This document shows positions 31,570 to 47,811 of a stretch of DNA of 64,000 bases, piece by piece. Position 1 is the stretch's first letter. Each line of letters opens with the position of its first letter. The stretch lies in NCBI GenBank assembly GCA_037178675.1, contig JAYMGJ010000300.1, positions 169,883 through 233,882 on the forward strand. Direction: 5' to 3'. The position numbers and the translations under genes were made by a program. The DNA comes from Scleroderma bovista (Eukaryota; Basidiomycota; Agaricomycetes; Boletales; Sclerodermataceae). Under the pieces are notes generated by a model. That model ran no database searches, was not told the DNA's origin, and saw only the letters and a list, made by a program, of their open reading frames with translations.

Positions 31570-32370
31570 TCTGTTAATTACATTTTCTGATTGGTCTGAA
31601 TGGTCTTAACTGTCTTACTAACTTACTGGCTGGGGTGTCTGGCCGCTATGACTCATGGACAGTCTGACAGTCTGGGTGGTCTAAACTTTCTGAGTGACTT
31701 ATTATCTGGGGGCCCTGATTGTGCTGGTTACTCTGAATGGTCTTATCTATCTGACAACCTTACTAGCTGGAGAGTCTGACTGGTATGACATGTCTGGCAG
31801 GGGCTTAAATGGTTGACTGGTCTGACTACCTGGTGGGTCTGACCACTGACCACTCTGACTGGTCTGCAGAAGTCTGAAGTGTCTGATTGCTCTGATTGCT
31901 CTGCCTGATCTGACTGCCTAGGAGGTCTGACAACTCTGATTGCTCTGGAGTGGCCTGAAGTATCTGACTGGCCTGACTGCCTGAAGGGTCTGATCACTCT
32001 GACTGTTCTGACTGGTCTGGATTGGCCTGAAATATGTGACTGGTTGGACTGTCTGGTGGGTCTAACCAGTCTGACTGGTCTGGGGGGTGGTCTGAAGTGT
32101 CTGACTGGCCTGACTGTCTGGGGGGTCTGATTGGTCTGATTTTTCTAACTGGTCTAGGGTAGTCTGAAGTGTCTGACTGCTCTGACTGCTCTGGATTGGC
32201 CTGAACTATCTGACTGACCTGGCTGTCTGGTGGGTCTGACCACTCTGACCACTCTGACTGGTCTGACACAGTCTGAAGTGTCTGACTGGCCTGACTGTCT
32301 GGGGAATCTGACTGGTCTGGAGTGGCCTGAAGTGTCTGACTGGCCTAACTGTCTGGAGGGTCTGAATATC
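31570..32370 (-). repeat. Satellite array, reverse orientation
   Basis: The reverse complement of the 26850-27470 family (GGTCTGACTGGTCTG on the plus strand), including the GTCTTAAC and ACTTACT landmarks of the higher-order unit near 31600-31640. The array ends about 50 bp from the truncated end of gypsy element A. Confidence 0.85.
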
Positions 32371-32416
32371 AGGGAAATTTTGAGGGAAAGATAATCTATT
32401 ATAATCATCAAAGGGG

Positions 32417-35029
32417 GGTTGATTCAGGGACCGGTAATTGCTTGAGCATCCCATAGGGTCGGTGATGTGGCGTCTTAGCTTGGGCACAGGCCGTGCAGGA
32501 CTTGACGTAGTCCTTTATGTAGGTACGAATTCCTGGCCATGTGTATTTGCGACGGATGAGCTCTAGAGTGCAATTTTGACCGAAGTGTCCCGATAGGGGA
32601 TGGTCATGCTTGTATCTGAGGACACGAAGACGTAGGTCATCGGCCTTGGGGACGTACATGTGACCATCGAGACATAGGTAACCAGTCTCATCAGTTGATC
32701 ATCGGGGATTCGATGTGTCCGAGAGGTGGGCTTTAGCGATGGGATCAGTCAGGAGGTTGGCTAGGATATCGGCATGAAGACGCTCGACATCCATGAGTGC
32801 ACTTGCTCTGAGTACTGGAGCGTGTAGGTATGTTGCGCGAAGGGAATTGATGAGCTGTTCAGCCGTGAACACCGGTTGGAGGTTCTGTGGATTGACTCGG
32901 GCGAAGCCCCTATCCCCCTCTTTGGGGTAGACGTCCCAGCGTCTAGTCAAGGCGTCGGGCTTTGCACCAAGCTTACCAGGTTGGAAACAAATAATCAAGT
33001 TGAACGAAGAGAGATATTCTGACCATCGGGCTTGCCGACGGGTGAGAACCTTAGAGGTGGAGAAATATTCCAAATTTTTGTGGTCGGTCACGACGTCAAT
33101 CAGGAAGGCAGGGCCCTCCAGATAATGACGCCAGGCCTTGAAGGCTTCGAAAATAGTGAGAAGCTCCTTGTCGTGTGTATTGTAGTTCAGCTCGGGCGCG
33201 GTCAGAGTGCAAGAGTAAAACACAACTGGTCGTATTTTGTCATCCGAACCTGTGATGGATAGGATACCGGCGATCGCATAGTCCGAAGCATTGGTCTCGA
33301 CTGTCAGTTGGGCGCCTGGCTGGAAGTGGGTGAGGATGGGAGCTGTGGTGAAGGCCTCCTTGAGTTGGTTGAATGAGCATCGGCAGACATCGGAGAAGTC
33401 CCAAGGGGCATCTTTCTGTGTCAACTGAGTTAGTGGGACCACTATATCAAAGTAATTGAATATAAATCGACGGTAAAAGTTTGCGAAGCCGAGGAAGGAC
33501 TGAATGTCCTTCACCTTGCGAGGTTCGGGCCAATCGCAGATTGTCTTGACTTTGTCTTGCGACATCGTCAATCTGTCGGGGGAGAGGAAGTACCTGAGGT
33601 ACTCCACCGAGTCTGAATGGAACTCACACTTTTCGGGTTTGGTGTAAAGCTTGTGCTGGCGGAGTCGCCGAAGCACTTCCCGAACGTGGTCAGTATGGTC
33701 CTCCATATTGTCCAAGTAGACTAGGATGTTGTCAAGGTAGACTATGACGCAGGCATCGAGCATGTCCGCGAAGACGGAGTTGACGAACCACTGAAAGGCT
33801 GCAGGGGCGTTGGTGAGACCGAAGGGCATCACCTGCCACTCATACGAGCCATAGCGAGTCCTGAAGGCGGTTTTCCACTCATCACCTTCGGCAATGCGAA
33901 CCAGGTGATAAGCATGTCTCAGGTTGATTTTAGTGTAGACCTTTGCCCGACTCGGAGAGTTGAGTAGGTCGGAGATGAGGGGTAGGGGATACCGATCCTT
34001 CTTTGATATTCTGTTGAGTCCTCAGTAGTCAACGCAAAGTCGGAGAGAGCCCTCCTTCTTCTTGACGAAGAGGACAGGGGCTGCATGGGAGGATGAGGTC
34101 AGACAGATGAAACCAAAGCGTAGGTTTTCGTCGATGAATGCCCGAAGGGTTTCAAGCTCGATGGGGGAGAGAGAGTAGAGTCTACCAGGCGGTAGAGGCG
34201 CTCCTTCTTCCAGTTCTATCTTGAGGTCGTATTCCCGATGAGGCGCGAGTACCAATGCTTTCGCCTTGCTAAAGACGTCGGCAAAGTTGTGGTATGCCTC
34301 GGGGACAGAGGAGAGGTTGGGAGCAGTGTTGACCGATGCAGCGCAAAAGCTACCGTCAGGCTTCAGCTGGATAGAGAACTGTTGAGAGCCATTGAGCTGG
34401 CAAGCCTTTAGAAAAGCTGCAGTGTTGATGAGAGCGATAGGAGGTGCCCGAAGACCAGGAGCCTGAGGCGAGTCGGTCGGAGAAGGAGATGAGACTGACG
34501 TAGCGTAGAGTCTCAGCATGCTCGGTGAGGGTGCTACAGGGTCGGGGAGTGAGCTCGGGGTTGGCACTTGCTGCGTAGATGTTCTGAACTCGATACTGCT
34601 CAGTACCCAGTCAATTGACGGATTGTATCAGGTGAGCCAGTTGTGTCCGAGCACAATCTTACAGTCAGAGTCCAACGGGGTGACATAAAATGTCATCGGG
34701 GTGATGTCGCCAGAGGGAAAACGGATGGGTAGATTGGTTGCTTCGGTGATTATGGTGGTGGTGGTACCATCGAATAGACGGAGAATGATCGGGGATACCG
34801 AGTAGCATGAAAGAGTGTTCATATTGGCAAAAGATGGAATCTACAAAACAATGGGTAGAACCCGAATCTACTAGCGCAGGAAAGGACTGTATATCATGGT
34901 CACTGACGGTAACCTGAGGTTGGAGAGAGTTGGGGTCGGAAAGAGCGGCTGCATTGAGTTGGGCCTCCATAGGTGCACAGTCAGGAACAACGCAACTCCC
35001 ACTCTGTGTGGAGTCTCGGGAGTTGCTAT
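32417..35029 (-). pseudogene. Pol of element A (protease, RT, RNase H, partial integrase)
   Basis: Ordered fragments: aspartic protease with ALVDSGSTHCFVD (about 34.88 kb), RT start with APVLFVKKKEGSLRLCVDY, RT core with MPFGLTNAPAAF (33.83 kb), RNase H with VETNASDYAIAGILS, tether, and the integrase H2C2 finger (HDHPLSGHFGQN then CTACAQAK) near 32.5 kb. Inactivating changes: the RT box reads YLDN instead of YLDD, the RNase H start reads ETNAS instead of ETDAS, both D-to-N (G-to-A on the coding strand), plus several frame breaks. The reading ends at KQLPVPE where the element is cut off. Confidence 0.85.
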
Positions 35030-36379
35030 CTATTTTTTTGCCTCAGTGGAGGCTGTCGGTTTGGCTTCTGATGTGTTCGTGGTAGTGGTGGTAGCTGCCC
35101 TAGCCTTGGCTGCTCGAGAGCCTGACTTGGGGCAGTCCTTGGCCTTGTGGCCAGTTGCACCACAGAACATGCACAGATTCATGTCGAACCTGCGCTTGCG
35201 TTCCTCAGAGGTCAGCTTGCCGTCCTTGCCGAGCTTGTCCGAAAGCTCAGCAGTCTTGCCCGACTTGTTAGTTTTCTGAGTCAGGGTTGACAACGAAGAG
35301 GACTGGGCAGCGTTGCCTGAGGATTTACCCTTATCGGTTTTACCCGACTTGGTGTTGGGGGTGTTGGTACTAGTGCTGGTAGAGGTCTTGTTCTGATGTG
35401 CGACCTCTTCCTTGCGTTCCCAATATCAGGTGTCGATCTCCTGGGTAAGGATGCGAAGACCGTTCAGAGTGTGCAGTTTACCGACATGGCTTATCTCGTC
35501 CTTGATTCGGTCGGGGAGACCTGTGTAGAAGTGATGGCGTAGGGCACCATCGCCATAGCCCTGAACCTGGGAAGCGATGCGATTGAAGTCAACCACATAT
35601 CGGTTGGCACAATGGTTTTCCTTCATGTGGAGGTGGTCGAGCTGATGCTCGGCGTTGGCAACTGGGTCATGGGGACTGAAAGTTGTTTGGAGTTCAATGA
35701 CAAACTCTTCCCAATCGGTCATCCAGATCGGACGGTTGTGGGGGTCTCCTGCACCGAGTAGGTCTGGCTCGAACCATTTGAGAGCCATCCCTTTGAGGTA
35801 CAATTGCGCGAACGTGACCTTGGTTCGGTCAGTTCGGAATGCCTTCAGTCGGTCCTGGAAGTTGAGCTCGCACTGGACTAAGAATGTGCGCAACTTCTTT
35901 GGATTGGTCCCGTCGAAGGTGTCGGGTTCGTGCACCTTGGTGCGAGACGACGACTCAGAAGAGCGCGAAGATCGCGCGAGTCTGTTGATAGCGATGGAGA
36001 GATTATTAAAGATGACTAGACCAGCCTCATCTGGGTCGGGGATGCCATCAATGGGGTTTTCACCGCCATCATCAGGGTTTGGGTCGTCGGGGTCGTCGGG
36101 ACCATCACTGCCAGGACCATCGTCACCGGGGCCATTGTCGTAGGGATGGTCATCACCTGGGTCATCGCCGAGATCTTCGACGAAGGCCCCAGGTGGGCGA
36201 TGCTGAGCAGGGGAGGAGGCCCTCCGAGCAGAGAAGCCTTGGAATTGGGAGATGGAGTCAGGTGAGTGCCTGAGGCTAGTCAGAGCGCTCAAGGCAGCAG
36301 CCCAACAAGTGTTGGATGCTGAGGGTTCCGGGTTGTTTGTGTGAGCAGTGCACGAGCAGGTTTGGATTGTCCTGGACAT
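35030..36379 (-). pseudogene. Gag of element A
   Basis: The ATG at 36379 opens a retrotransposon Gag with an acidic Asp/Pro/Gly-rich segment, the capsid-type core (FLVQCELNFQDR, YLKGMALKWFEPD, YVVDFNRIASQVQGYGDGAL) and, after one stop, the CCHC zinc knuckle CMFCGATGHKAKDC. The single stop (TGA at 35426-35428) replaces the arginine of the ARYWER motif seen in element C. The frame ends at TAG (35030-35032) directly after an A7 run, the site where pol is presumably joined. Confidence 0.85.
35033..35039 (-). other. A7 slippery site of element A
   Basis: Seven A on the minus strand, immediately followed by the gag stop TAG; the same A AAA AAA heptamer lies at the gag end of elements B and C. Confidence 0.6.
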
Positions 36380-36420
36380 AGATGATTGTGAACTCGTACA
36401 AGACTAGAGTTCGAATATAC

Positions 36421-39274: not shown

Positions 39275-39943
39275 TTCTTCTTGATGAAGAGGACTGGAGC
39301 AGTGTGAGAGGAAGAGGTAGGGCGGATGAAACCTGTAGTAAGATTCTCATCGATGAATGTCCGGAGAGTGGAGAGCTTGACTGGAGACAGTGAGTAAAGG
39401 GTTCCCAAGGGTGGTGAAGTACCTTCCTCGAGTTCGATCTTCAAATTGTAATTGTGATGTGGGGGAAGTTCGGAGGCTTTCACCTTACTGAACACATCCA
39501 CATAATCACAATATTCCAGAGGGACGATGTCCAAGTCTGGCGGAGTTGATATAGAAGAGGACCGGACCTTTGCTGAGTCGGCAGGATGCAGCTGGAGTTG
39601 GTACTTTGTGGATCCTTCCAAACTGCACACACGCACGAATGCGGCTGCGTTGATTAGAGAGATGTGCGGAGGGGTGCAAGCTGGAGTGTCGACAGATGGC
39701 ACAAGGCCTGGGGTAGACTGGCCAGAGAGGCTGGAGTCAGAGTTTCTGGGCAGAACTGGAGAGGGAGTCGACAGGGGCGCTGGCAAACTTCCTGCAAGAG
39801 TCCGGAATGTTAAACTACTCAATACCCAGTCAATCAACGGATTATAGCGGGTGAGCCAGTTATGTCCAAGGACAATCGAACATTCAGAATCCAATGGAGC
39901 AAGATAAAAAGTCATGGGGGTGACATCACCGGATGTGGGGAAC
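39275..39943 (-). pseudogene. Element B pol fragment (end of protease to start of RT)
   Basis: Reads MTFYLAPLDSECSIVLGHNW at the protease end, the linker with PPHISLINAAAFVR, and the RT start (GFIRPTSSSHTAPVLFIKKK). It is bounded on the low side by the retroposon and on the high side by the LTR of element C; the upstream continuation is at 47807. Confidence 0.85.
39939..39943. repeat. Target-site duplication of element C, left copy
   Basis: GGAAC, repeated at 47807-47811. Confidence 0.85.
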
Positions 39944-40588
39944 TGTCAAGTCCGGGTCTACTCCGGTAGGAGGTCCGGTCAAGTCCGGACGAGCGCAGAC
40001 AAAGGAAGGGGGCAGAGGGCTGTACGAGGGATTAGTCCGGCCGGAGTTGGTGACCGCTTGGATTCAACGACAAGGACGACGTGCGTTGATCCCTTGCGTA
40101 GGTTCCGGTCAAGGTGATAGAGACAGAGACGGAGACGGAGACGGAGACAGGCAGAGACTGGAGTAGTGACTAAGTTGATTTCAGACTGAGGTGTACAAGG
40201 TAAACTAGAGGGTACTTATACTAAGTAGAACTAGGGTCGAGTACATACGGTGACAAGTAAACAGCCTAATAGCGGACAAGGGATGACCGGAGTTAGGACT
40301 AGGTCAGGTCCGGTGAAAATAAAGTCAGGTCCGGTAAAATAAATCAGGTCCGGTGAAAATGCTACAAGGTATAGGATATATCGAGTTCACGGAGAACTCA
40401 CGTCAAGGCAGGGTAAACGGCAAAGTGTGGTAACGAGCGAATGGAGCATAGACCAAGGGTCGTGCTTAACGGAAGGTTATCTGCGTGAGCGCGACCGGAG
40501 TAGGAGACGAGCGACCGGAGTAGAGCTGTAGAGCTGCGATGCGACCGGAGTGACCGGATAAGGCCCGGAGTTGGGCATGGTCGTAACA
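39944..40588 (-). repeat. 3' LTR of element C
   Basis: 645 bp with TG..CA ends. It contains about 16 CCGG tetramers and a threefold tandem block with GTCAGGTCCGGTGAAAATAA near 40310-40360. It lies just upstream of the antisense gene and may supply or regulate its promoter. Confidence 0.9.
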
Positions 40589-40604
40589 GTATCCCCCTTT
40601 TAGG
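40589..40604 (-). promoter_or_regulatory. Polypurine tract of element C
   Basis: On the minus strand CCCCTAAAAGGGGGATAC directly precedes the 3' LTR, the position of the plus-strand DNA primer of LTR retrotransposons. Confidence 0.6.
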
Positions 40605-40696
40605 GGCCGAACCCATGAGGCCCCAATGAGGCTGTCGTGTGGTCGCCTAGAACAATGCGGAGTCCGGAGTGATTGTCTGAGTACGAAATTTGGATC

Positions 40697-40703
40697 TATA
40701 AAG
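40697..40703 (+). promoter_or_regulatory. TATA-like box of the antisense gene
   Basis: TATAAAG (within CTATAAAGATC) lies 51-57 bp upstream of the ATG at 40754, outside the LTR. Confidence 0.5.
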
Positions 40704-40753
40704 ATCAAACCGGTTCTTGCTTTTACCCCCAGTTTCCTGCCATTAATCAAAAC

Positions 40754-41788
40754 ATGTCGAACACTGCTAAGTCCACCACCCCCACTGTTCCCTCTGCGGT
40801 CGAGTCCAAGGACTGGACCAAGGCGCCAACACCGGAGCTCCAGTCCGGTAGCGAAGACGAGGCGTCCGTCCTCGATGCCAAAACAAAGGAGAGGCGTCGA
40901 CGCAAGCAGGTCAAGAGAGAGGAGAAGCAACGCCGGGAAGAGGCGGAGCGACGAGCACGAGAGGAGGCGGAACGCAAGGCGAAAGAGGAGGCGGAGCGCC
41001 AGGTGCGCGAGCAGGCGGAGAAGGAACGAGTGGAGGTGCAGCGAAGGGCTGCAGAGGTAGCGGTGAGGCAGAGAGCGATGGCGCAGGAGGCGTCGAAGAA
41101 GAGAGCGAGGGAAGAGCCGGAGGCGGGTCCGAGTGGAGACCGGAGCGACAATGTCCGGTAAGTATTTTTTTTAAATTTTATTCCCTTGTTACTTTATTAA
41201 TTTTTTGGCAGGTGCATTCGCTGTGCGAAGCACAAGGCCAAGTGCGAACGAGACCCGGAAAAACCCAAGCAGCGCGCGTGCATGAAATGCGCAGGGCTCA
41301 AGGAGCGGTGTGAGTGGCCGGAGGTGGGTGGTCCGGGTCCGGTAGGGGATAAGGGGAAGGGCAAAGCGAAGGAGAAGGAGGTGGTGATGTCACCGCGAGG
41401 AGGCGAGAAGCGGAAGAAGAAGAAGCTGGCGAAGGTCGTCAACGACGACGACGACATCGTCGAAGTACCGGGGCCGTCTGGGAAACGGTCCGGGTTTGAC
41501 CCTGGGCCGTTCCTGGAACGACTGGACCGGTTGACCGGGGCGGTGGAGGAGATGACCGGTCAGATGCGCCGGGTCGCGGATGCCACCCGCTCGGTGGCCA
41601 GAGGTAACGAGCGGCTGACGGCCGGCCTCGAGACCTTCCTCGAGGAGTGCCGATTTTTTACGGCGCCCTGGGATGAAGACGAGGAGTCGGAGGACAGCGA
41701 GGCGGAGGTCGACCCGGAGGAGGTCGAAAAGGAGGTCCAGGGGCTCCAAGAGGAGCAGGAGGATCCTGGCAGCGGTGCGCCGGAGTAG
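40754..41788 (+). CDS. Antisense accessory ORF of element C with Zn2Cys6-like cluster
   Basis: Predicted 326-residue nuclear protein of unknown role, encoded against the direction of gag-pol between pol and the 3' LTR. Exons are 40754-41157 and 41212-41788; the 54-bp intron has a canonical GTAAGT donor and CAG acceptor and restores the frame. Residues about 45-120 are a highly charged Arg/Glu/Lys coiled coil. Cysteines at 136, 139, 146, 158, 161 and 168 follow the spacing C-x2-C-x6-C-x11-C-x2-C-x6-C of the GAL4-type Zn2Cys6 DNA-binding cluster (CIRCAKHKAKC, then CMKCAGLKERC). A basic stretch (KRKKKKLAK) could be a nuclear signal, followed by DDDDIVEVP, which fits a SUMO-interacting motif. The C-terminus holds a helix (PFLERLDRLTGAVEEMTGQM) and an acidic tail. 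Its stop is 54 bp from the pol stop, tail to tail. An RNA-binding Cys knuckle is an alternative. Confidence 0.8.
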
Positions 41789-41842
41789 TTGGTCCGGTCC
41801 GGAACTTGTAAATAGAAATGTAATTTAGTTTTACTTTTTTGT

Positions 41843-44800
41843 TTATAGAGAAAAGTGGCTGGATTTGAGAGTGAGTGATATTACAGAGACAGAGTGAAAC
41901 AGATAGGGGAAACAGATAAAAGAAACAGATAAGAGAAACAGAGGCGAGAGTAATACTACATGGACGCAAGTGGTCCGGGTTTGTCCGGGTACCGGACATG
42001 ATAATCTTCTAAGTAGTTCCGTAGCGTTGCCTAGTTCAGTGGCGAGTAGCCAAGACGTTTCTTCATCAGTTCCCTCGTAGCCAGACCAACGTACCATGTA
42101 GAGTAGCTTGCACAATTTACGGCGATGGTCAACCTTGGAGTCGAGGATCTCAGAGATCTCGAACTCTGGTTCACCATCTACTTTGACCGGTGGCGGAGGA
42201 GGTTGTATCCGGTCCGGTATGGTGTTGGGTATGGCCGGTTCGAGTTGGGAGACATGGAAGACGGGGTGAACTGCGCGCATGGAATCTGGAAGGCGGAGCG
42301 TAAAAGAGAGGGAGCCTACTTGCGCGATGATAGTGTAGGGCCCCAGGTTCTTCTCTGATAGCTTTTTGGATGGTCGTGTTGACCGGAAGTATTTGGCTTT
42401 CACGTACACTTGGTCGCCAACCTTGAAGTCCGGTGCCGGAGTACGTTTGGCATCAGCCGGACCTTGGTAGCGAAGTTGCGCGTTGGCCATTTCTTCTCGA
42501 AGGTATTGATGCAGCGACTCAAGGTCAACTGCGTAGTCATGAGCCCGTGCAGAGGTCATATCGCGTTCTGGATAGACGGAGATGTTAGGATGATAACCTT
42601 TGTTAGCGAAGAATGGTGAGACTCCGGTGGTAGCACTAGGTGCGTTGTTGTATGCAAACTCCGCCAGTGGGAGTAGGTCCGCCCAGTTGTCCTGCTGGTA
42701 GTTGCAGTAGATGCGGAGGTACTGTTCCAGTGTCTGGTTAGACCGCTCTGTCTGGCCATCGCCCTCCGGGTGGTAACCGGAGGTGAAATGGAGGCGCATG
42801 TCGAGAGCCTTCCCAAGTGACCGGAAGAAGTGTGAGACGAATTCAGTTCCTCGATCTGAGGTGACGTGGGCGGGAACACCGTGCTTGGAGAATACGTGGA
42901 GCAAGAAGAGTTTTGCGAGCTCCGGGCTAGTGATGGTGTCGTGAGTAGGAATGAAAATGGCTTGTTTAGAAAGCCTGTCTACTATGACCAGGATGGCTGT
43001 AAAGCTGGTGGATGAAGGGAGTTGCTCTATGAAGTCCATCGAGATGGAATTCCAGGGCTTCTCCGGTACGGGAAGCTGTTTCAGCAGCCCATAGGGTCTA
43101 TGGCGCGGTGTCTTAGCTCTTGCGCAAGAAGTACAGGACCGGACGTAGTCTTTGACGAAGGTCCGGAGACCAGGCCAGGTATACTCACGCCGGATTAGTT
43201 CTAGAGTCCGGTTTTGCCCAAAGTGACCAGCGAGTGGGTGATCGTGTCGATACCGGAGAACCCGGAGACAGAGGTCATCCAAGTCCGGTACGTATATACG
43301 ACCGTCTAGTCGAAGGAAACCAGCCTCGTCGGTGGACCAGCGAGAGTCCGGTGGATCTGCGAGGTGGACCTGGGCAATGGGATCAGAGGGTAGTGCAGAG
43401 AGGATGTCGCTGTGGAGTGTTTCCACGTCCATGATTGCGACTGCACGGAGGACCGGAAACTCTAGATAAGTAGCACGAAGAGAATTAGAGAGTTGTTCTT
43501 GAGTGAACACCGGCCTAAGGTTTTGGGGATTAACCCGGGCGTAGCCACTATCCCCCTCTTTGGGGTAGACGTCCCATCGTCTAGTGAGAGCGTCCGGCTT
43601 GGCACCGAGTTTTCCGGGGCGGAAACGAATGACAAGATTAAATTGAGAGAGAAATTCAGACCACCGGGCTTGCCGGCGGGACAGTACTTTTGAGGTGGAG
43701 AAGTACTCGAGGTTTTTGTGGTCCGTGACAACGTCTATAGGGGAGGCGGAGCCTTCGAGGTAATGGTGCCAGTTCTGGAAAGCTTTGAAAATAGCAAGTA
43801 GTTCCTTATCGTGGGTGTCGTAGTTTAACTCCGGAGCAGTTAAAGTCCGGGAGTAGTATGCGACCGGATGAATCTCTCCGTCGGCGCAAGTGATAGACAA
43901 GATGCCAGCGACAGCGTAGTCAGAGGCGTCAGTTTCCACAATAATAGGGGTGTCCGGAATGAAGTGGGTAAGGATGGGCGCGGTAGTGAAGGCGTGCTTG
44001 AGAGCATTGAAAGAGCGTCGACATTCCTCAGAGAAGTTCCAAGGAGCATCCTTCCGGGTGAGCCGGGTGAGAGGGACCACGATGTCCGAGTAGTTGAATA
44101 TAAACCGGCGGTAGAAATTGGCGAAGCCTAGGAAGGACTGGATGTCCTTTACCTTTCGAGGTTCAGGCCAGTCGGAGATGGTCTGGATTTTGTCCGGAGA
44201 CATAGTTAGACCGTCAGGAGATAGGCGGTAGCCAAGATACTCTACCGAGTCCGAGTGGAACTCACATTTCTCCGGTTTGGCGAAGAGGCCATGCAACCGG
44301 AGACGGTGGAGTACTTCCCGGACGTGCTGCTGGTGGGACTCCATATCCTCGGAGTAGATGAGGATGTCGTCGAGGTACACGACGACGCAGACATCCAGCA
44401 TGTCAGCGAAGATGGTGTTGACAAAGCGCTGGAAGGCTGCAGGGGCGTTAGTGAGGCCAAAGGGCATTACTAACCACTCGTAGGACCCATAGCGTGTACG
44501 GAAGGCGGTCTTCCACTCGTCGCCCGGAGCAATCCGGACTAGATGGTACGCGTGCCGGAGATCGATCTTTGAATAGATTTTAGCACGGCTAGGTGAGTCC
44601 AAAAGATCAGAGATTAGGGGGAGTGGATAGCGATCCTTTTTAGTGATTTTGTTTAGACCTCGGAAGTCAACGCAGAGGCGGAGTGAGCCATCCTTCTTTT
44701 TTACGAAGAGGACCGGAGCAGCGTGGGAGGAAGCGGTAGGACGGATGAAACCTGTATTTAGATTCTCGTCGATGAAGGTCCGGAGAGCAGAGAGCTCAAC

Positions 44801-45672
44801 CGGAGACAGTGAGTAGAGAGTTCCCAGAGGAGGGGAGGTACCTTCTTCAAGGTCGATCTTCAAGTCGTAGTCGCGATGCGGGGGAAGTTCAGAGGCCTTC
44901 GCCTTACTGAACACATCCGCATAATCGCGATACTCCGGAGGGACGATGTCCAAGTCCGGCGGAGTAGAGGCGGAGGAAGAACGAGCCTTTGCTGTGTCAG
45001 AAGGACGCAGCTGAAGTTGGTATTTGGTGGATCCTTCTAATTTGCACGCACGCACGAATGCGGCTGCATTAATCAGAGAGATGTGGGGAGGGGTGCAAAC
45101 CGGAGTGTCGACAGATGGCGCGAGGCCGGGGTCAGATTGGCCGGAGAGGCCGGAGACAGGGTTACCGGACTGAACCGGAGAGGGAGTCGACGGGGGCGCT
45201 AGCAAACTTGGTGCAAGGGTCCGGAAAGTTAAACTGCTCAGTACCCAGTCAATCAACGGATTGTAGCGGGTGAGCCAGTTATGTCCAAGGACAATCGAGC
45301 ATTCAGAATCTAACGGAGCGAGGTAAAAAGTCATAGGGGTGACATCACCGGATGCGGGGAATTTCACTGATAAATCGACAGCTTGAGTGATTACAAAGTT
45401 TGATGTACCGTCAAAGAGCCGGAGTGTAATCGGAGGAACGGAGTAGGTGGTAATATTGTTTTTGTGCGCGAATTGTATATCTACAAAGCAATGCGTGGAC
45501 CCGGAGTCCACAAGAGCGCGGGTTTTAGGTAAGTCAAATGGTAAGAGGATAACATGTGGCATAAGGGAGTTAGGATCGTAAAGAGCGGACATGTTGAGGC
45601 GGGCCTCCTTGGGTGCACTTCCGGAGTCAACGCAGCTCACCGGTTGTGCGGAGGGCTGGGAGCTGCTTACTC
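41843..45672 (-). CDS. Pol polyprotein of element C
   Basis: About 1,265 codons, uninterrupted. Order of domains: aspartic protease (LVDSGSTHCFVD), reverse transcriptase (APVLFVKKKDGSLRLCVDFR, MPFGLTNAPAAFQ and an intact YLDD box), RNase H (VETDASDYAVAGIL), integrase H2C2 finger (HDHPLAGHFGQN, CTSCARAK), DDE core (MDFIEQLPSS, VTSDRGTEF, EGDGQTERSNQ) and a C-terminal chromodomain (FEISEILDSK, YMVRWSGYEG, TSWLLATEL). The chromodomain places it in the chromoviruses, which target heterochromatin. There is no ATG before the protease: the frame is open back to the A7 run at the end of gag, so it is expected to be made as a Gag-Pol fusion by -1 frameshifting. The first alternative start (GTG, 45640) need not be used. 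Confidence 0.9.
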
Positions 45673-47103
45673 TTTTTTTGACTCGGAGTTGGCACCCAAG
45701 TTAGAGTCCGTCTTACCAGATTCAGCAGCGATGGCCGCAGCGCGAGCCTTGGCCTTTTTGGTCTTTTTTGGACAGTTGTCCGCGAAATGACTGGTACCTC
45801 TGCAGAACATGCAGAGGTTGTTGTCCAGACGCCTTTTGCGCTCGTCTGCGGTTAGCTTCCCGTCCTTACCAAGCTTGTTGGTTAGGTCCGGTCTGGAACC
45901 GGAGGAGGACTGGTTGCTGGTCGTCTTGGACAAGCCAGAGTTGGCGGGGCTGGGGGAGTTTCCGGTCTTGGCCTGACCGGAGTTAGGGGAGTTGCCTCCG
46001 GAGTTGGAGGGCTTGGTTGGGGATGAGGTGGACTGGGTCTTTGTCGTACGAGAGATCTCGTCTTTGCGCTCCCAATAGCGCGCGTCGATCTCTTGACAAA
46101 GGGCCCTAAGCCCATGTAGAGTCAGGGGCTTCCCAACTCGAGCTATCTCGTCCTTGAGGCGATCCGGGAGACCGGAGTAGAATAGGCGGCGGAGCGCGCC
46201 ATCTCCGTAGTCCTGGACCTGGGAGGTGAGTCGGTTGAAGTCTACTATGTACCGCGTAACGCGGTGAGCATCCTTCATCCGGAGGTGCTCTAATTGATGC
46301 TCTGCATCAGCGATGGGGTCGTGAGGTCCAAAGGTGCTCTGGAGCTCAGCGACGAAGTGAACCCAACTGTCCATCCAGAGTGGACGGTCAGCCGGATCAC
46401 CGGAGTGGAGGAGGTCAGGTTCGAACCACTCCAACGTCATACCTTTGAGATAGGACTGGGCGAACGTTACCTTAGCCCTATCTAGGCAGAACGCTTTGGC
46501 GTGATCCTGGAAGCAGAGCTCACACTGGACCAAGAAGGTCCTGAGCTTTTTGGGATCCGTACCGTCGAAGGTGTCCGGTTCACGGACTTTGGCACATGAG
46601 GAGGAAGAGTCGTTGGTCCGGCAGGAGGAGCGGGAGAGGCGGTTGACGGCGACTGCTAAATTTTGGAAGACAGCCAGACCAGGGTCTAGCTCATCCATGG
46701 CGTCGACAAAGTCATCATCGTCGTCATCATCGTTGTTGCCATCTCCGGGGTCGTCCGGATCATCTCCGGGTCCGTCCTCAGGGCCAAACCACTGGTGACG
46801 GGCAGGTTCGCAACGTTCTGGAGTGGGGTCGCGATGGTAGGGGAATCGATCACCAGAAACGGATTCATGGTGACCTAAGTCTGCAGAACCACGAAGGCTC
46901 TGAGACGCAGCATCTCGATGCGGAGTCAAAGGCGCTGTAGGGTTTCGAGCTGTGAAGCTCCGGAATTGGCTAACTGAAGCCGGAGGTTGCCTGCGGTTAG
47001 ACAGGGCTTGATGAGCAGCAGAGAGGTGGAGGTCGTCGACTGCACCTGCTTCTTCAGCAAGTGCTGCAGCGGTACGAGCACGAGAGCGCGTAGTCATAGT
47101 CAT
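45667..47103 (-). CDS. Gag of element C
   Basis: 478 residues from the ATG at 47103, forming the virus-like particle shell of the retrotransposon. It has an N-terminal variable part, an acidic low-complexity stretch, a capsid-type core (FLVQCELCFQDHAKAF, YLKGMTLEWFEPDLL, YIVDFNRLTSQVQDYGDGAL, ARYWERKDEIS), a Ser/Asn/Gly/Pro-rich linker, and one CCHC zinc knuckle (CMFCRGTSHFADNCP). It ends NSESKKE at TAA. The reading frame is clean, in contrast with the homologous gag genes of A and B. Confidence 0.9.
   Translation of the reverse strand: MTMTTRSRARTAAALAEEAGAVDDLHLSAAHQALSNRRQPPASVSQFRSFTARNPTAPLTPHRDAASQSLRGSADLGHHESVSGDRFPYHRDPTPERCEPARHQWFGPEDGPGDDPDDPGDGNNDDDDDDDFVDAMDELDPGLAVFQNLAVAVNRLSRSSCRTNDSSSSCAKVREPDTFDGTDPKKLRTFLVQCELCFQDHAKAFCLDRAKVTFAQSYLKGMTLEWFEPDLLHSGDPADRPLWMDSWVHFVAELQSTFGPHDPIADAEHQLEHLRMKDAHRVTRYIVDFNRLTSQVQDYGDGALRRLFYSGLPDRLKDEIARVGKPLTLHGLRALCQEIDARYWERKDEISRTTKTQSTSSPTKPSNSGGNSPNSGQAKTGNSPSPANSGLSKTTSNQSSSGSRPDLTNKLGKDGKLTADERKRRLDNNLCMFCRGTSHFADNCPKKTKKAKARAAAIAAESGKTDSNLGANSESKKE
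45673..45679 (-). promoter_or_regulatory. -1 frameshift slippery heptamer at gag-pol junction
   Basis: On the minus strand gag reads TCA AAA AAA GAG TAA. A AAA AAA is a perfect X XXY YYZ heptamer two codons before the stop, and the -1 frame is open straight into the protease. Equivalent A7 runs end gag in elements A (35033-35039) and B (48122-48128). Confidence 0.7.
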
Positions 47104-47172
47104 AAGAAATAGAAGCTAGTTTGCGTACGGGGTATGGAACAGTGAACCCACACAAGTGTGAGTCTGAAATAC

Positions 47173-47806
47173 TGTCAAGTCCGGGTCTACTCCGGTAGGA
47201 GGTCCAGTCAAGTCCGGACGAGCGCGGACGAAGGAAGGGGGCAGAGGGCTGGACGAGGGATTAGTCCGGCCGGAGTTGGTGACCGCTTGGATTCAACGAC
47301 AAGGACAACGTGCGTTGATCCCTTGCGTAGGTTCCGGTCAAGGTGATAGAGACGGAGACGGAGACAGGCAGAGACTGGAGTAGTGACTAAGTTGATTTCA
47401 GACTGAGGTGTACAAGGTAAACTAGAGGGTACTTATACTAAGTAGAACTAGGGTCGAGTACATACGGTGACAAGTAAACAACCTAATAGCGGACAAGGGA
47501 TGACCGGAGTTAGGACTAGGTCAGGACCAGTGAAAATAAAGTCAGGTCCGTGTAAAATAAATCAGGTCCGGTGAAAATGCTACAAGGTATAGGATATATC
47601 GAGTTCACGGAGAACTCACGTCAAGGCAGGGTAAACGGCAAAGTGTGGTAACGAGCGAATGGAGCATAGACCAAGGGTCGTGCTTAACGGAAGGTTATCT
47701 GCGTGAGTGCGACCGGAGTAGGAGACGAGCGACCGGAGTAGAGCTGTAGAGCTGCGACGCGACCGGAGTGACCGGATAAGGCCCGGAGTTGGGCATGGTC
47801 GTAACA
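47173..47806 (-). repeat. 5' LTR of element C
   Basis: 634 bp, TG..CA ends, near-identical to 39944-40588. The transcript of the element should start here. Confidence 0.9.
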
Positions 47807-47811
47807 GGAAC
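47807..47811. repeat. Target-site duplication of element C, right copy
   Basis: GGAAC, matching 39939-39943; element B sequence resumes directly after it. Confidence 0.85.

Follow-up and report, generated by a model that had tools for sequence, protein, structure and literature searches.

The window, by which we mean the whole stretch of 64,000 nucleotides of Scleroderma bovista DNA analysed here, contains a Ty3/gypsy LTR retrotransposon of what we call family F at 39944-47806, recognised from its LTR pair, target duplication and Pfam domains, with gag-pol read on the minus strand. Its 3' LTR (39944-40588, minus strand) and 5' LTR (47173-47806, minus strand) are direct repeats of each other and 96.5% alike, and a GGAAC target duplication (39939-39943 and 47807-47811) bounds the element on both sides. 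Between the LTRs lie gag (45667-47103, minus strand) and pol (41843-45640, minus strand), both called from open reading frames and Pfam, the latter encoding protease, reverse transcriptase (RT), RNase H, integrase and a weak chromodomain. The Pfam matches are to RT, RNase H, integrase and gag; the chromodomain falls under its cut-off (17.8 vs 25.1 bits). The initial annotation spoke of an intact chromovirus, which is right for most of pol, but besides the sub-threshold chromodomain, the end of pol behind it (41843-42040, minus strand) is out of register in the window copy when compared by eye with a related element, L057. This young element lies within an older F copy whose CpGs have decayed and whose pieces are found at 36.4-39.9 and 47.8-51.6 kb. 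Elsewhere in the window, imperfect TCTGACTGG-type repeats at about 31580-32370 adjoin a truncated element of a second family, S, in a zone that is nearly free of CpG (observed/expected ratio 0.04 at 31-32 kb). In another F locus (L024, 7670-8754) the gag end of the element carries an inverted F LTR, and further out lies a piece of another LTR.

On the plus strand, opposite in direction to gag-pol and between pol and the 3' LTR, is a gene at 40754-41788 that encodes 326 amino acids once spliced. Exon 1 (40754-41157) is rich in Lys, Arg and Glu and resembles a coiled coil, a call made from amino-acid composition. It is followed by a predicted 54-bp intron (41158-41211, GTAAGT...CAG), supported by its GT-AG signals and by comparison of copies; read unspliced, the frame reaches a stop at once. 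Exon 2 (41212-41788) encodes a Zn2Cys6-type cluster, a basic stretch, a long predicted helix and an acidic tail. The codons of the six-cysteine cluster, CIRCAKHKAKCERDPEKPKQRACMKCAGLKERC, occupy 41213-41311 (residues 136-168), with the spacing C2C6C11C2C6C, and a putative promoter, TATAAA (40697-40702, plus strand), starts 57 bp before the ATG. The spliced frame, the TATA-like box, the frame-restoring intron and the cysteine spacing had all been described in the initial annotation, and each is confirmed here. Because the gene does not overlap the pol open reading frame, it is no coding shadow of pol.

A search of the genome assembly (51.8 Mb, 850 contigs) with exon 2 returned 150 scored matches among 257 candidates, the window's own included, and 113 of the 150 are free of stops (counted by hand from the table). 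Both exons were found in all 20 loci that were fetched, the gene lies opposite pol in each of the 19 with pol on the contig, and an LTR stands beside it in 19 of the 20, the exception being L017. No domesticated host gene was seen, all 20 fetched loci lying inside elements. Of 41 copies, 37 have an intron that could be parsed at the same place, and L011 and L021 also show one (39/41), leaving L030, in which it is deleted, and L035, which is truncated. The 37 parsed introns are 46-62 bp long, comprise 29 distinct sequences and fall in all three length phases; all 37 have GT and AG, as well as a loosely defined branch-like motif, so that the intron body varies between copies while its signals are kept. 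Long open frames had raised the suspicion of precise intron loss, but L029, L031 and L032 retain the intron and L030 carries a deletion there; no precise loss occurs among the 41 copies, which is consistent with the earlier suggestion that antisense orientation protects the intron. Exon 1 could not be parsed in seven of the 37 copies, and among the remaining 30 a TATA box lies 52-57 bp 5' of the ATG in 28, the other two having had their start parsed upstream.

After L029 was dropped for a wrong start, 29 copies remained for estimates of pN/pS, for which the 21 without stops were used. The ratio is 0.25 over the whole gene, 0.26 in exon 1, 0.24 in exon 2 and 0.14-0.15 in the cluster; for pol it is 0.12 (15 copies). 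Four of the five alternative frames of the antisense gene give 1.30-1.54, and the fifth, at 0.37, is the antisense frame whose third positions coincide with those of the gene. Non-overlap with pol, pN/pS and the frame controls rule out a chance open reading frame or a shadow of pol, and on these comparisons the antisense open reading frame is a real gene under purifying selection. The claim that it is a true accessory gene of the element is thus upheld by its many copies, its low pN/pS and its conserved intron signals.

Two other Boletales, Scleroderma citrinum and Melanogaster broomeanus, have homologues with 43-50% identity that resemble the F protein in the cluster, in an MS...KS.TP motif at the N-terminus and in the acidic tail. 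It had been surmised that mushroom genome annotations list such relatives as hypothetical proteins, and the homologue search bears this out; some carry the UniRef name Zn(2)-C6 fungal-type. In one of three aligned S. citrinum proteins (P0074) the fourth cysteine is absent. A pattern search of viral contigs gave 16 stretches, none of which codes for a relative.

Zn2Cys6 domains follow the pattern CX2CX6CX5-16CX2CX6-8C, which the F cluster fits; the clusters of the sister families S (C2C8C10C2C6C) and T (C2C9C10C2C6C), introduced below, depart from it in a first loop of eight and nine residues. Pfam PF00172 (Zn_clus) is hit below its gathering score of 21 by F (12.6 bits), S (13.7) and the F-like L058 (13.9), and the T protein has no Zn_clus match. 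A structure model of F exon 2 reaches block pLDDT values of 72-82 in the cluster, where it shows two short helices, and has an overall pTM of 0.31. All 23 Foldseek matches of this model are Zn2Cys6 DNA-binding domains, though weak (best E 0.34, probability 0.93), and include Leu3, Pho7, GAL4, 1cld, Hap1, Ppr1, Put3 and AlcR. None of the seven Foldseek matches of the S model is a Zn2Cys6 structure, and none of the 21 matches in a search of PDB sequences is a Zn-cluster entry. The F protein resembles Gal4, Leu3, Hap1 and Pho7 in its six-cysteine spacing, in the structural match of its model and in the CGG-type sites discussed below, and differs from fungal Zn2Cys6 regulators in being sub-threshold in Pfam, in being encoded by a mobile element, and in having a long charged stretch before the cluster and a helix after it. 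CGG triplets are the typical target of fungal Zn2Cys6 proteins, according to the available text of PMC5559640.

What the gene might do for the element had been left open; family-specific motif arrays, which had gone unseen, now give that role a direction. K-mer counts over the F element (39944-47806) reveal an array of 131 CCGGA/TCCGG sites in both orientations, containing 114 distinct CGs, where about 21-23 sites would be expected from dinucleotide frequencies, and CCGG makes up 132 of the 559 CpG contexts of the element. The sites are spread alike over LTR, gag, pol and antisense gene, and the limits of the array coincide with family F DNA, old copies included. In pol alone there are 62 sites, against 22.3 +/- 4.5 under shuffling that keeps the protein and codon counts. 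The best z values for 4-, 5- and 6-mers are 15, 26 and 33 in F, 14, 10 and 10.5 in S, and 10, 14 and 18 in T; across six control stretches, namely five others from the window (two of them overlapping) and one from L056 in which the open reading frames are transposon-like, the best z for 4- to 6-mers is 3.2-6.5.

Fourfold sites show that the F motif is kept by selection, synonymous codon positions included. Using 14 of the 20 fetched loci, with pol aligned over 3400 bases and the window copy as reference, we found changes in 46 of 983 comparisons (4.7%) at the 75 fourfold sites inside the motif, in 475 of 2168 (21.9%) within 12 bases of it and in 1338 of 5467 farther off; a value as low as that of the motif never arose in 20,000 base-matched samples. 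Both orientations are conserved (14/552 and 18/279 changed), T in the motif never changed (0/140), and CCGG without the flanking T or A changed more than the full motif (54/383). The most changed of the classes tested is TCGG/CCGA, the word of family S, at 55/126 (10 sites). In a ranking of 59 5-mers CCGGA stands third, and the two that are lower have just 13 and 18 sites to its 75. A rival account would make the arrays a by-product, whether of mutation, of the context of CpG methylation or of biased codon use, with the antisense gene unrelated to them. CpG decay is indeed seen in old F copies and in flanking DNA, yet in the two decayed pieces beside the element motif CpGs (20/52 kept) have eroded like other CpGs (78/209), so that the motif enjoys no mutational shelter, which rules out mutation context as the explanation. 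Non-CpG positions of the motif are conserved as well (22/566 changed vs 1600/6566), the enrichment stands over synonymous shuffles that preserve codon use, and families within one nucleus have different words; taken as a whole, the by-product account is extremely improbable.

The families compared all carry the antisense gene and fall into three word classes in this one genome. Family S is represented in the window by a fragment at 32400-36400 (minus strand), in which TCGG/CCGA occurs 73 times vs 33 expected and CCGG five times vs 14; in the S search, 57 of 109 scored matches are at least 83% to S. Its pol is 78.8% identical to that of F in protein and its gag 61% over 310 residues. The S antisense gene has two exons at the same place as in F and shares 31% identity with F across 268 aligned positions, so that the antisense protein has diverged far more than pol (31% vs 79%); the intron of the S gene is 55 bp long in L051 and L053, while in L052 it was not recovered by a string search. 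In S the word is TCGG (199 vs 97 expected; in pol 103 vs 51.5, z 9.8), with T or G as the preferred next base; it is weak in the LTR (14 vs 6.8, z 3.1). CCGGA is scarce in S (5 vs 24), as is TCGG in F (17 vs 82), although these expectations are inflated by the arrays themselves; by density, TCGG at 2.2 per kb in F is below the 5.6 per kb of the window's 1-25 kb stretch. With two duplicate rows left out, fourfold sites within the S word changed in 7/300 comparisons vs 70/1443, which is suggestive and not significant (p 0.06). In-place conversion of F words to S words in pol was considered and rejected, CCGG being aligned with TCGG at only 5 of 60 positions and with CCGA at 3 of 60. S-type proteins with 53-63% identity also occur in S. 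citrinum, and the F and S lineages therefore appear older than the split of these fungi.

Family T is known from one copy, L055, whose pol is 72% to F. Its antisense gene is at the same place and has a six-cysteine cluster, with no interruption between the charged stretch and the cluster. At about 1100-1300 of L055 the N-terminal frame that begins with the ATG comes to a stop, after which the charged stretch and the cluster are encoded in a long open frame; either the intron may sit elsewhere or the copy may be broken. The T word is CGGAG preceded by G or T (100 vs 28; pol 47 vs 21, z 6.5), and CCGGA is again scarce (9 vs 18). T is the least clean case of a private word by these counts: plain 4-mers are hardly enriched in its pol (GCGG z 1.9, TCGG z 0.2), its gag alone has the word 12 times vs 7.9 +/- 2.2, and CTCC without CGG is also over-represented. 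Two F-like lineages, L057 and L058, keep CCGGA (94 vs 18 and 27 vs 7), their antisense proteins having 38-49% identity to F by the method applied.

We hypothesize that the antisense protein, with its charged coiled-coil-like part, Zn2Cys6-type cluster and acidic tail, is built like a nuclear regulator and would bind a family-specific, CGG-centred word (CCGGA/TCCGG in F) along the whole element, selection keeping that word at more than 100 places in F, synonymous codon positions included. It is likely, in our estimation, that the antisense protein is the reader of the word; the CGG core common to all three families fits a Zn2Cys6 reader. An alternative we consider unlikely accepts the arrays as real and selected but assigns them to the Gag nucleocapsid, as signals for RNA packaging, or to integrase/chromodomain, the antisense protein being otherwise employed. 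Gag and pol do differ between F and S, to the degree given above, and the words are strand-biased as an RNA signal would be: in F hexamers CTCCGG outnumbers CCGGAG 47 to 13 and CCGGAC outnumbers GTCCGG 38 to 8, and in T the bias runs through all regions (CTCCG 86, CGGAG 14). Against this, both orientations are enriched over codon expectation in the pol of F (2.84x and 2.55x) and S (1.97x and 2.0x), which fits binding to double-stranded DNA, and both are conserved at the fourfold sites of F; in T pol the enrichments are 2.3x and 1.76x, the rarer orientation weakly so (z 1.6). Strand bias is itself compatible with a DNA reader, since the arrays of the VANC21 system are described in the consulted portion of PMC5735166 as lying in the same orientation. 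Sites in F and L057 tend to a spacing of 10.5-11 bp (0-6 of 300 jittered controls were as strong), close to one helical turn, and T has a peak at 10.5 bp in one test (7/500) and near 10 bp in another; S is not significant and control k-mers, several of them overlapping the word, reach similar power, so that helical spacing is a hint only and counts as weak evidence for DNA binding over RNA packaging.

If the antisense protein is the reader, coating of its own DNA could keep the family open for transcription, by anti-silencing or activation, as VANC does on VANDAL transposons, and in the sister families a diverged gene together with a diverged word would let each recognise itself. This combined reading, in which the protein reads the word of its own family and thereby keeps it open, is one we hold to be probable from the sequence comparisons and from analogy. 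Its least-supported part is the outcome: anti-silencing is the likeliest of the purposes considered, but that it is the effect rather than some other self-directed one is a tentative suggestion. That the families form mutually blind systems of self-recognition, each with a private CGG word at some 100 or more places and a spliced antisense reader, avoiding the words of the others and coevolving, seems to us slightly favoured.

The same binding could instead restrain the family, as copy-number control through repression of transcription or a block to integration. A retrotransposon product is known to restrain its own element in Ty1, and antisense RNA could feed silencing. The latter is discussed for plants in the text seen of PMC7264820. 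We nevertheless regard self-restraint as improbable, in that selected words throughout gag and pol, and a protein and word that diverge together, fit escape from silencing better. A further possibility, that the protein tethers the integration complex to word-rich DNA such that new copies land in old ones, would account for the nesting of the window copy, with its GGAAC duplication, in an older F copy, and for F matches in the outer flanks of L023, L024, L027 and L031 and a T match in one flank of L030. The other 19 of the 24 loci have no F, S or T in their outer flanks (up to 700 bases), such matches as L013, L020 and L030 (on one side) give being internal; self-targeted integration is mostly unsupported by these counts and tethering is quite improbable.

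The closest functional parallel is provided by the VANC anti-silencing proteins of Arabidopsis VANDAL transposons, for which the sections consulted of PMC5735166 describe a short word crowded into the protein's own family, different words for related proteins, and DNA that loses its methylation once bound; VANC proteins are also covered in PMC10398659. As in F, the gene is one of a mobile element and stands beside the transposition genes, the word abounds in its own family and seldom occurs in other elements, relatives have diverged proteins and words, and VANC outpaces the transposase in divergence (PMC5735166, in the part available) as the antisense protein outpaces pol. VANDALs differ in being DNA transposons, whereas F is an LTR retrotransposon, and, as far as the same excerpts go, in having their words in non-coding tandem repeats, whereas those of F occupy gag, pol, the antisense gene and the LTR alike. 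The portions of PMC5735166 and PMC10398659 that were available mention no Zn2Cys6 cluster, and the VANC Pfam domains DUF1985 and DUF287 have no match in F or in the eight relatives scanned. Demonstrated hypomethylation, again going by those portions, is a further point that sets VANC apart from F. Should the proposed reading hold, fungal retrotransposons would have evolved sequence-specific recognition of self independently of the plant DNA transposons in which it is known, and the clusters, diverged along with their words, would offer a naturally occurring panel of matched specificities in DNA binding.

Gypsy elements with antisense accessory genes are likewise known already, as are VANC-type words; what appears to be new is their combination. 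The parts of PMC7264820 and PMC11963269 at hand describe antisense open reading frames between pol and the 3' LTR in the plant Ty3/gypsy elements Grande (gene23), RIRE2 and Retand (TRP28), at the same position and in the same orientation as the F gene, and call the function of such LTR-retrotransposon genes unknown. In those parts Grande has its own promoter, like the putative one of F, and Retand predicted DNA binding; the proteins are different ones, and no word array through the element is reported. Here the gene comes with a clue, a selected word at synonymous sites that differs by family along with the gene, and the pairing of gene and word allows a direct binding test: F with CCGGA, S with TCGG and T with CGGAG.

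Among fungal elements, Boty of Botrytis cinerea has brtn, reportedly the subject of Zhao et al. 2011. HTLV-1 HBZ, a spliced antisense gene of an LTR element whose product is a nuclear regulator, encodes a bZIP protein; the F protein has no Pfam match to bZIP, PF00172 being its sole entry at E up to 1. Boty brtn is an extra antisense gene in a fungal gypsy element (cited in PMC7264820 and PMC8365987) and is set apart from F by its description, the text of PMC8365987 at our disposal mentioning no Zn2Cys6 cluster, splicing or word array, while HBZ is mentioned among the antisense genes of LTR elements in the corresponding extract of PMC11963269. In the titles and abstract openings of the literature searched we recognised neither an antisense Zn2Cys6 gene in fungal retrotransposons nor a family-specific word through retrotransposon coding sequence.

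Several minor observations concern the antisense gene in other settings. A T-like antisense gene is present in L056 (5952-7039, minus strand) beside transposon-like open reading frames, with no gag or pol in the 8.1 kb examined, and is either a remnant or a lone copy. Relative to L001, the copies L048, L045 and L046 are among several that join exon 1 of one subfamily to the exon 2 or tail of another, an arrangement that suggests recombination between subfamilies, such as by template switching. Finally, low-scoring places in the genome hold further distant relatives of the antisense exon 2 (C370, C351:41360, C546, C598, C786, C278 and C689), which are possibly members of more families with words of their own.
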